Source: Epsilonproteobacteria bacterium tcs-49
GTDB lineage: Bacteria > Campylobacterota > Campylobacteria > Campylobacterales > Sulfurovaceae
Assembly (NCBI GenBank): GCA_002049495.1
Contig: LLYS01000001.1
Coordinates: 186,001-250,000 of the forward strand
Direction: 5' to 3'
Length of the DNA: 64,000 nt
The translations under genes and the position numbers were made by a program. The notes under the pieces were generated by a model. That model was not told the origin of the DNA, did not search any database, and worked only from the letters and a program-made list of their open reading frames with translations. Shown here one piece after another: positions 47,621-52,663 of this stretch (the stretch's first letter is position 1; each line of letters begins with the position of its first letter).

Positions 47621-49171
47621 TTAGATCTTATCCTCTTCGCCCAAGCGAAGCTGCTGCTTTAAACTGTCCTTCATGGAAAGATAACTATTAAGCGCGTTGA
47701 CGTACGCTTCCGCGCTGGCTTTCATCGTATCCAGATCCAAACCGCGGCCGATCACGGCGGGTTTGTCATCGTCAAAGATCACCTGCACCACCACTTTTGC
47801 CAACGCGTCTTTGCCCTGGCTGACCGCCTGGACCTGGTAATCTTTAAGCGTTCCCTTATAACCCGCGGCTTCGTCGATGGTTTTAAACACCGCATCGATA
47901 GTCCCGTTGCCGATCTGTGCCGCACGGATCGTTTCGCCCTCTTTGCGCAGCGCAACCGCCGCAGTCGCCATGGCGCTGCTGCAATCACTCAGCTGCATAC
48001 TCTCAAGCTCGTAAACCGGCTCGAAATTGACCTGGGAATTCAACAGCGCTCTGATATCGTCGTCAAAAACCTCTTTTTTACTGTCGGCTAAGACTTTGAA
48101 CTTTTCAAAGGCGTCAAGCAACTCACTTTCACTCAACTCATAGCCAAGCTTTTGCAACTTGTCTTTAAAGGCGTGTTTGCCCGAGTGCTTGCCTAACACG
48201 ATACTGTTTTTCTCCATCCCGATATCTGCCGCACTCATAATTTCATAGGTTTCCTGGCATTTCAACACGCCGTCTTGGTGGATACCGCTTTCGTGCGCAA
48301 AGGCGTTTTTGCCCACGATCGCCTTGTTGGGCTGGGGCACGATTCCGGTGATGGAGGAGACCAAACGGCTGGAGGGATATATCTCTTTGGTGTTGATATT
48401 GGTCTCATACTCGCCGTAGATATCGGCTCTGGTTTTAAGCGTCATGACGATCTCCTCAAGTGCGGCGTTGCCCGCGCGCTCCCCCAGACCGTTGATGGTA
48501 CACTCCACCTGCATCGCGCCGTTTTCGACCGCGGCCAAAGAGTTGGCCACGGCCAAGCCCAAATCGTTGTGGTTATGCACCGAGATAATCGCCCGCTCTC
48601 CCGCGTGCTCGCTCAACTCTTTGATCATCGCCGCGATTTCGTGGGGCATTCTGTAGCCCACCGTATCGGGAAGGTTGATCGTCGTCGCCCCCGCTTCGAT
48701 CACGGCGTCCATAATCCGCTTTAAAAAAGGGATCTCACTCCGTCCCGCGTCTTCGCAGCTAAACTCCACGTCTTCACAGTAGCTTCGCGCCAGCTTCACC
48801 GCTTTGACCGCGCGTTCTACCACCTCGTCCTCGCTCATTTTCAACTTGTTTTCCATATGGATGGGACTGGTGGCGATAAAGGTATGGATCCTTTGGTATT
48901 TAGCCTCTTTAATCGCTTCCGCGGCTTGGATGATATCGTTATCCACCGCTCTGGCCAAGGAACACACCCGGCTTTTGGTGACCCGTTTTGCGATCTTTGA
49001 GATCGCTTCAAAATCCCCTGGACTTGCCGCGGCGAACCCCGCTTCGATGATATCTACGCCCAACCTTTCCAACTGTAGCGCAATCTTGACCTTTTCCTCT
49101 ATATTCATGGACGCGCCGGGACTTTGCTCCCCGTCACGCAACGTTGTATCAAAAATTTTAATCGTTTTCAT
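47621..49171 (-). CDS. leuA: 2-isopropylmalate synthase
   Basis: A 516-residue enzyme condensing acetyl-CoA and 2-ketoisovalerate, first step of leucine synthesis. The TIM barrel has [16 protein letters not shown], the metal-binding [13 protein letters not shown], and [11 protein letters not shown]. The C-terminal leucine-feedback (LeuA dimer) domain is present (about 385-505, [13 protein letters not shown]). AAGAAGG precedes the ATG. A promoter, a leucine-rich leader peptide and alternating hairpins lie upstream, so it seems to be controlled by leucine supply. No other leu gene is adjacent. Confidence 0.97.
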
Positions 49172-49192
49172 TGTATAAAACCTTCTTCAATT

Positions 49193-49229
49193 ATCTAATT
49201 TAATCTGCATTTAGATGCCTTAATGCATC
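49193..49229 (-). promoter_or_regulatory. Mutually exclusive hairpins between the leader peptide and leuA
   Basis: Three perfect pairings overlap: GATGC with GCATC (49225-49229 / 49214-49218), TGCATT with AATGCA (49222-49227 / 49206-49211), and ATCTAA with TTAGAT (49211-49216 / 49193-49198). The first and third exclude the second. No U-run follows directly, so a classic terminator is not evident. Confidence 0.5.
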
Positions 49230-49255
49230 ACATATTCGTATCGTATAGTGGTTAT

Positions 49256-49336
49256 TTATCGAGAGAGAAGTAGGAGTTTCAGGAGGAGCAGTATACCGTT
49301 GCCTTGTGGTATTGTATAACGAACTTGTGTTTTCAT
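49256..49336 (-). CDS. leuL: Leucine-rich leader peptide of leuA (attenuation leader)
   Basis: An unlisted 26-codon frame, ATG 49334-49336 to TAA 49256-49258, encoding MKTQVRYTIPQGNGI, then LLLLKLLLL, then SR. Eight of nine consecutive codons are leucine (CTG CTC CTC CTG, AAA, CTC CTA CTT CTC). AGGAGG lies five bases before the ATG and a consensus promoter lies just upstream. This is the architecture of amino-acid attenuation leaders such as leuL of enterobacteria: ribosome stalling when charged tRNA-Leu is scarce would change folding of the downstream RNA and raise leuA expression. The peptide would have no other function. I infer regulation; it is not proven. Confidence 0.8.
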   Translation of the reverse strand: MKTQVRYTIPQGNGILLLLKLLLLSR

Positions 49337-49364
49337 AACGTCCTCCTTTAATTTTATGTTGCTA

Positions 49365-49394
49365 ATTATACTACAATTTTTCCTTTTTAATCAA
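49365..49394 (-). promoter_or_regulatory. Sigma-70 promoter of the leuA leader
   Basis: TTGATT (49389-49394) and perfect TATAAT (49365-49370) separated by 18 bases, placing the transcript start about 20 bases before the leader ATG. It begins just after the pssA stop. Confidence 0.75.
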
Positions 49395-50669: not shown

Positions 50670-52663
50670 TGCTGCGGCCCTTTCTCATCGCCATCCTCAC
50701 CATCTTCATCCTCGCTGTCGATCGCTTCTTGGATGTCGCTGTTTTTATCTTCGTGCTGCACGATCTTTGTGGGGATATCGTGCTCCTTCTCAAAGGCTTC
50801 GATCAGTTTCGTCACTTCGCTTCCCTCGATCGTTTCCTTTTCAAAAAGCTTTTCCACCATCTGTTCGATCGCGCCGTTATACTCTTTGAGGCGATTGATC
50901 ACATGCTTATAGCGCTCATCGAGCATACTTTTAATATACTCATCCTGCTGCTGGGCCATATTGTCGCTGTACTCCTGGGCGCCCATACCGCCGCCGAGGA
51001 ACTGGTTATTCTGTTTACGCAGCACCATCAAGCCCGCCACTTCGCTCATCCCGTAGATGCTTACCATCGACTTGATGATATCCGTTGCCCGTTCCAGGTC
51101 GTTGCTCGCTCCAGTGGAGATTTCGCCCAAAAACACCTCTTCGGCCGCGCGACCGCCAAGCAGCGTATCCACTTCGGCGATGAGTTCGTGCTTCTGCATC
51201 AAAAAGCGGTTCTCTTCGGGTTTATTCAGGGTATACCCCAGCGCCGCAAGCCCCCGCGGAACGATGGAAACTTTTGAAACGCGCTTCGCGCCCTTGGTCG
51301 TTTCGGCGATCAAGGCGTGGCCGCTTTCATGGTACGCAACGATCTTTTTCTCTCTGGGGTTGATACGGCGGCTTTTTTTCTCAAGCCCCGCGATGGCACG
51401 CTCAACCGCTTCGAAAAAATCCTTTTGCTCCACCGATTTTTTACTTTTTCTTCCCGCAAGCAGCGCCGCTTCATTGATAATGTTGGCCAGATCTGCCCCA
51501 GCAAGTCCCGCCGTCATGCGTGCAAGCTCCTCCAAATCCACGTCATCGGAGAGTTTGATCCCCTTGATATGCACGTCAAGGATCTCTTTTCGACCCTCGA
51601 AATCGGGCTTATCCACAAGTACCTGACGGTCAAAACGTCCGGGCCGCAAAAGTGCCGGATCGAGCACTTCGGGTCTGTTCGTCGCTGCCAGTACGATAAT
51701 AGGCACGTCGGTACTAAAGCCGTCCATCTCCGCAAGCAGCTGGTTGAGCGTTTGCTCCCGCTCATCGTTGCCGCCCATGGGACCGCCCGCACTTCTGCTT
51801 TTACCGATGGCATCGATCTCGTCGATAAAGATGATGCCGGGGGCATCCTTTTTCGCCTTTTCAAACAGATCGCGCACACGGCTTGCGCCTACGCCCACGA
51901 ACATTTCGATAAAGCTCGAACCGCTCATGGAGAGAAAGGGAACGTCCGCTTCACCGGCGACCGCTTTGGCCAGCAGGGTTTTACCCGTCCCCGGAGGGCC
52001 CACGAGAAGTACGCCTTTGGGGATCTTTGCCCCCAGTTCGATATAGCGCTCGGGGTATTTCAGAAATTCAACGATTTCGCTGACCTCCTCTTTGGCCTCC
52101 TTCGCTCCGGCAACGTCGTCAAACTTCACCTTGGGCTTTTCGGAACTGATCACGCCGTCGCCCTTGTTCATCCCCAGCATACCGCCGCCGATGTTTTTCT
52201 GCATCCGGTTTGCCAAAAACATCCAGATGGCAAAGAAGATAAAGATGGGAATGATCCAGCCAAAAAGCATTTCGCTCAGCCAGTTGCTTTCGCTGTAGCC
52301 TCCGTAGCTGATCCCCTTCTCTTCCAAAAGCGGGATCAGCGTGGGGTCGTTTTTGACCGCTTTGGCGATGTAGAGCGTACGCTGTCCGTTTTGCTCACTG
52401 ACGGCTTTGATGCTCGTTTCGCCCACAGCCACGTGCTGTACCTGTTGATTTTTGATCAAATCCTTAATCTCGGAGTAACTGACCTCCTGGGTTTTTGCGG
52501 CTTTGCCCTGCATCGCCGCTCCGGCTCCACCTTCGCCGATGATCGTTTTAAACAGTACGATCACGACCAGCGAAAAGATACCGAAGGTCAATAGCGGATT
52601 TTGATTAAAAAAGTTGTTGTTTTTATTATTGTTGTTATTGTTATTGCTGTTTTTATTATTCAT
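50666..52663 (-). CDS. ftsH: ATP-dependent membrane metalloprotease FtsH
   Basis: A 665-residue AAA+ protease of the inner membrane. Two membrane segments (about 24-43 and 132-152) flank a periplasmic domain; GPPGTGKT Walker A, the VLAATNRP block, and zinc-binding HESGH near residue 445 are present. The N-terminus is unusual: about 16 residues of almost only Asn and Lys. Overlaps both prmA and the decarboxylase-like gene. Confidence 0.98.
52610..52660 (-). repeat. Asn-codon trinucleotide tract at the start of ftsH
   Basis: A run of AAT/AAC/AAA triplets encodes the N-rich cytoplasmic tail of FtsH. It is imperfect, so slippage would be in triplets and would not break the frame. Confidence 0.6.

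Follow-up and report, generated by a model that had tools for sequence, protein, structure and literature searches.

Upstream of leuA in the 64 kb stretch of DNA analysed here (the window, taken at its full length) lies a short leader locus comprising a promoter, a Shine-Dalgarno (SD) sequence and an open reading frame (ORF), leuL, encoding a 26 amino acid peptide whose last 11 residues include 8 leucines (Table 1). A sequence-only reading of this DNA had placed such a unit, with promoter TTGATT-18-TATAAT, AGGAGG and a 26-codon frame carrying eight leucine codons in nine, between pssA and leuA on the minus strand; all of these elements were confirmed in the sequence and the identities of PssA and LeuA are both backed by NCBIfam matches. 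The leuA ATG is at 49171, 84 nt beyond the end of leuL. Among ORFs of 15-60 amino acids in all six frames of the 64 kb, leuL alone has at least 8 leucines in 9 residues, and no small ORF of this kind was found in 30 Markov-1 resamplings of the window. The pattern of an SD, an ATG and four leucine codons occurs twice in the whole genome, one occurrence being leuL, and is not rare by itself since a reversed control pattern was found three times. The leucine run is doubled, reading LLLLKLLLL at 49291-49265, and a relative (L062) has LLLLSLLLLSL.

Table 1 Features of the leuL-leuA locus (positions in the window)
Feature	Position	Strand	Remarks
Sigma-70-type promoter of leuL	49365..49394	-	TTGATT 49394-49389, 18-nt spacer, TATAAT 49370-49365; 10/12 consensus matches
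Leader Shine-Dalgarno AGGAGG	49342..49347	-	Read from sequence; 5′ arm of predicted SD:Leu-codon helix
5′ arm of predicted SD:Leu-codon helix	49347-49341 + 49339-49338	-	
leuL, 26-codon leader peptide MKTQVRYTIPQGNGILLLLKLLLLSR	49256..49336	-	ORF; such leaders precede leuA in 121/157 loci
Leucine codon run CTG CTC CTC CTG AAA CTC CTA CTT CTC	49265..49291	-	8 Leu in 9 codons
3′ arm of predicted SD:Leu-codon helix (anti-SD)	49289-49281	-	Part of leucine run; group-level covariation
leuL-leuA spacer, 84 nt	49172..49255	-	No U-tract terminator
Possible hairpin GATGC-ATTAAG-GCATC	49229-49214	-	Within leuL-leuA spacer
leuA Shine-Dalgarno AGAAGG	49181..49186	-	Pairs with second half of Leu run in the window's minimum-energy fold; not above chance
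leuA, 2-isopropylmalate synthase, presumed controlled gene	47621..49171	-	TIGR00973 leuA_bact 705.7 bits; NF002086 765.8 bits

Leaders of this type have been reported before in the phylum, and the sequence-only reading, which knew of no description in Campylobacterota, is contradicted on this point by the passages on LeuL in two papers (PMC3847290, 2013; PMC11955535, 2025). In those of the former, Porcelli et al. named LeuL upstream of leuABCD in C. jejuni, a 28 amino acid peptide with five terminal leucine codons whose RNA stops shortly after the stop codon, and predicted orthologs in most epsilonproteobacterial genomes with leu genes (PMC3847290). The corresponding passages of the 2025 translatome report a retapamulin initiation peak on C. 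jejuni leuL and its detection by tBLASTn in close relatives only (PMC11955535). Both propose that LeuL of C. jejuni or the Epsilonproteobacteria couples leucyl-tRNA to leuA expression, while these main-text passages mention neither pairing of the SD with the leucine codons nor the peptide motif LPKIEIKN described below (PMC3847290, PMC11955535). The window leader, an ORF within the 20-35 amino acid range with an SD directly upstream of leuA and several C-terminal leucines, belongs to this known LeuL set, and its anatomy departs from both the textbook attenuator and the actinobacterial LEU element. The leucine codons of C. jejuni LeuL are rare, whereas those of the window are not especially so; CTG is the commonest leucine codon there, and sensing through rare codons was rejected for the window leuL on this ground.

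To place the leader among its relatives we utilized the leuA-upstream regions of 157 loci in the order to which the window belongs. An ORF with SD and leucine run was called as a leader in 124 of them, and three of these calls were set aside as false. The frame and the terminal leucine run thus recur upstream of leuA in 121 of the 157 loci, so that the conservation of frame and leucine codons on which the sequence-only reading had staked its case was borne out. This conservation gives good support to a genuine leucine leader peptide before leuA, and leuL probably reports leucine supply. A -10-like TANWAT lies 14-75 nt upstream of leuL in 35 of 48 class A and 31 of 41 class B loci, as against 22.9 and 17.7 in shuffles, A and B being the two classes into which the leaders split. 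Class A, to which the window leader belongs, mostly has a leucine run of at least three codons and otherwise little sequence common to the whole class. Several families (f6 and f15, e.g. L022, L097, L103) have no recognisable leucine leader before leuA by the criterion of ORF, SD and leucine run, and seem to have lost it or never gained it. Five leaders searched against Pfam and NCBIfam gave no match, nor did an Rfam scan of the window at the gathering score; leaders of this kind are covered by no model in these three collections.

Together with the nucleotides that follow it, the SD is complementary to the leucine codons and the nucleotides just ahead of them, as in AGGAGGATAGA/TCTATCCTCCT, AGGAGTGT/ACACTCCT and AGGAGAATAG/CTATTCTCCT. 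As AGGAG and CTCCT pair by default, each species' own SD and leucine run were compared with pairs drawn from different species. The duplex averaged -10.92 kcal/mol within species and -9.44 kcal/mol between them (permutation z -7.1, n = 73 leaders), and the excess was still present among only 20 very divergent class A leaders (z -4.8). No within-species excess was seen for the leucine run with the leuA SD or with the spacer, for the leader SD with the spacer or with the N-terminus, or for the N-terminus with the leucine run. RNAalifold found no structure in whole leaders aligned by MAFFT, since the alignment was built on the ATG and the SD lies at varying distances from it. Rows were therefore anchored at the SD and the first leucine codon and joined by an artificial constant spacer, and the helix was counted on these. 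In this fixed register 43 class A leaders gave 39 double-change cells where 24.4 were expected, and a covariation score of 0.183 versus 0.114 that was reached by none of 500 shuffles, which do not remove kinship and so give no exact probability. The register scored best at slide 0, and the first flank pair is AU in 28, UA in 7, CG in 1 and GC in 1 of the class A leaders. The anchored rows omit five class A loci whose leucine run or SD lies off the anchor (L028, L107, L116, L140 and L142), which favours the helix somewhat; the duplex tests and another fixed-register test are free of this omission. Within the window the first half of the leucine run forms a duplex of -12.9 kcal/mol with AGGAGGA, equalled by 0.4 % of shuffled SDs, and the predicted probability that the SD core is paired with the leucine run is 0.999 (median 0.98 in class A). 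Against synonymous recoding the window taken by itself is not extreme, 6-32 % of recodings pairing as strongly. In class B the excess is weaker (z -3.5 to -2.0); there the two codons of the leucine run are TTA or TTG in 0 of 46 leaders, whereas the leucine before the proline in the same peptides is TTA or TTG in 35 of 46. The sister family f18 has a weak SD and has mostly lost the pairing. Pairing of the leucine codons with the SD of their own leader is thus supported by covariation, the case being made by the group rather than by the window. It is the single helix here that comparison backs, and the sequence-only reading had not noted it; leucine codons doubling as the anti-SD of their own leader are described in none of the literature searched.

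Class B leaders, found in sister families (sites labelled L160-L189 and L190-L254), carry G..KAIK.LPKIEIKN.LL with LPKIEIKN directly before the leucine run. In 46 non-redundant leaders the L, P, K, I, E and N of this motif and both leucines are invariant, while the second I is kept in 44 and the second K in 40, the remainder being Thr and Arg. Third codon positions of LPKIEIKN vary (diversity ~0.3-0.7) while first and second positions show almost no diversity, a codon pattern that points to selection acting on the peptide and not on the RNA or the leucine codons alone. Of 299 genomes, 65 have the LPKIEIKN codon pattern, each at a single site, and none has its reversed control; 29 of 30 inspected sites stand before leuA. 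A codon scan for PKIEIKNxLL across ~85,000 species genomes returned 65 sites, of which 60 lie immediately ahead of leuA, four are truncated where a contig ends and one is unrelated. The genomes include those of Campylobacter concisus, Sulfurospirillum, Nitratiruptor and Hydrogenimonas or its type, where the conserved peptide offers a ready test for a nascent-chain effect. A literature search for 'LPKIEIKN' found no paper.

The sequence-only reading had also recorded the absence of a U-tract, and no intrinsic terminator was found in the window spacer. Terminator-like sites are scarce among the relatives too, being present in 6 of 89 loci (5 of 48 in class A, above the 1.3 of shuffles, and 1 of 41 in class B). 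This scarcity fits control by Rho or at the level of translation, as that reading had suggested. Rho sites are usually rich in C and poor in G. In the relatives the leucine run and spacer have more C than G (C.18-.31, G.08-.10) while the upstream flank does not; in the window the leucine run alone is C-rich, the spacer having C.14 and G.16. The genome encodes Rho (TIGR00767, 673 bits, over the cut-off). A -10-like TAWAAT lies between leuL and leuA in 30 of 48 class A loci versus 18.4 in shuffles, and many class A relatives may have a second leuA promoter bypassing the leader.

We propose, at a probability of roughly 45 %, that LeuL is a ribosome-based leucine sensor that dispenses with a terminator/antiterminator pair and probably depends on Rho, with a one-shot lock on its own initiation. 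A pioneer ribosome would start leuL before the leucine codons are transcribed. With ample leucyl-tRNA it would finish leuL, whereupon the leucine codons would fold back onto the leuL SD, no further ribosome would load and the leader would remain ribosome-free; transcription of the bare leader would then stop before leuA, most likely because Rho acts on the leucine run and spacer, whose RNA is C-rich and G-poor. Under leucine shortage the ribosome would stall on the leucine codons close to the stop codon and cover the RNA of the run, so that the anti-SD could not close the SD; leader translation would go on and transcription would reach leuA. The position of the ribosome on the leucine codons would thus set the choice between a covered and a bare leader, with the SD:Leu helix stabilising the bare state by blocking initiation. 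That the leader responds to leucine, that Rho terminates transcription and that the lock makes translation one-shot is what we infer. Termination and sequestration could oppose each other because some of the C-rich run is buried in the helix.

Control by a classical attenuator of the E. coli type, in which readthrough is settled by alternative hairpins beyond leuL that include a terminator, would share the logic of a leader ORF with leucine codons and could draw on possible hairpins at 49229-49206 and on a few class A relatives in which a hairpin resembling a terminator, for instance ACACC/GGTGT-TTT in L011, lies near leuA. The three overlapping, mutually exclusive hairpins of the sequence-only reading did not hold up, however, as the fold of the region from the end of leuL into leuA is on a par with shuffles (-10.2 vs -9.95 kcal/mol, z -0.09; z -0.48 for the whole leader) and no hairpin set is conserved in relatives. 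Class B spacers measure 42-60 nt in most cases and contain 9 % G, their median minimum free energy (MFE) being -1.7 kcal/mol against -29 kcal/mol for E. coli with its terminator; at this length and G content they offer too little for alternative hairpins. Leucine runs pair with the RNA downstream no better in their own species than across species (z +2.3) and the window has no Rfam match, all of which renders this mechanism improbable. Control at the level of translation, with the leucine codons or a stalled ribosome gating the leuA SD, or with reinitiation coupling leuL to leuA, has a precedent in the actinobacterial LEU element, where the leucine codons pair with the leuA SD inside a pseudoknot (PMC1262725), and in the minimum-energy fold of the window the leuL SD takes up the first half of the leucine run and the AGAAGG of leuA the second. 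The latter pairing is not above chance, though, 21-29 % of shuffles being equally strong, and across the group the leucine run pairs with the leuA SD more weakly within species than between them (z +2.1), while nearly all relatives have at least 42 nt between the leuL stop and the start of leuA. We consider translational control unlikely, if somewhat less so than the classical attenuator.

The nascent peptide might itself be the regulator, stalling the ribosome from inside the tunnel, helped by the leucine run. LPKIEIKN is a possible arrest peptide, and its near invariance in protein despite varying third positions, together with its single site per genome before leuA, would agree with such a role; the window leader and its family lack it, however, and only the leucine codons and the pairing are conserved there, which makes arrest a doubtful explanation. 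The pairing could also be a by-product, AGGAG and CTC-CTG pairing by default with flanks shared by descent and the leader acting otherwise. The core pairs hardly vary, the fixed register of class B gives no overall flank signal (z -0.2, with one position only), and synonymous permutation lowers the predicted pairing modestly, from 0.82 to 0.72, because AGGAG and CTCCT pair almost by default. Against this, flank positions covary in class A to a degree that no shuffle attained, slid registers score worse and the excess pairing extends to the very divergent leaders, so that we give the by-product explanation a low probability.

The proposed ribosome-based sensor differs in several respects from systems of known architecture. 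Textbook attenuation by leader peptides is known mostly from systems with terminator hairpins. E. coli leuL (NC_000913.3) likewise has a leader ORF with a run of leucine codons, four consecutive, before leuA; from the first leucine of the run to the stop there are however 19 codons in E. coli and 2-12 in the window and its relatives. The E. coli leu attenuator has a strong terminator hairpin with U-tract, to which the window and relatives have nothing comparable, and the window lacks an intrinsic terminator, antiterminator pairing with the leucine region and an Rfam match alike. Nor does E. coli leuL show unusual pairing of its SD with the leucine run (33 % of shuffles are equally strong), whereas in the window and relatives the SD pairs with the leucine codons. 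In Rho-dependent leaders, among them E. coli tnaC and speFL, ribosomes halt close to the end of a short ORF and intrinsic terminators are absent; the stall there involves a bound small molecule and not hungry codons. The layout proposed for leuL, with Rho as the probable terminator, resembles control of the tnaC type, except that leuL would read hungry codons. The LEU element shares a leader with a leucine run before leuA and leucine codons in a helix with an SD, but that SD belongs to leuA and not, as in the window and relatives, to the leader (PMC1262725, which also cites the tna case).

A bolder and rather unlikely version of the sensor model would extend it to the Campylobacterota at large, with leuA under a terminator-less attenuator whose leucine codons are the anti-SD of their own leader, so that one ribosome per transcript is decisive unless leucine is short; in sister families LPKIEIKN would additionally arrest or slow the ribosome, a leucine-gene arrest peptide not described before. 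If true, this would amount to phylum-wide attenuation without terminator hairpins, with the leader's ribosome-binding site locked by the very codons that do the sensing, and codon-based sensing would prove workable with Rho or another hairpin-free exit.

Spacers in the family of the window leader (e.g. L011, L014, L018, L009, L071) contain a recurrent ACCC-N5-GGGTAAAATTAGACAATT, a short inverted repeat with apparent compensatory changes, in place of which the window spacer has only a degenerate GATTAAATTAGATAATT. The repeat adjoins a -10-like TAAAAT (TATAAT in family f8 loci such as L110 and L138), perhaps a second leuA promoter. Elsewhere in the window the start of the FtsH ORF (52601-52663) is an asparagine-rich low-complexity repeat.
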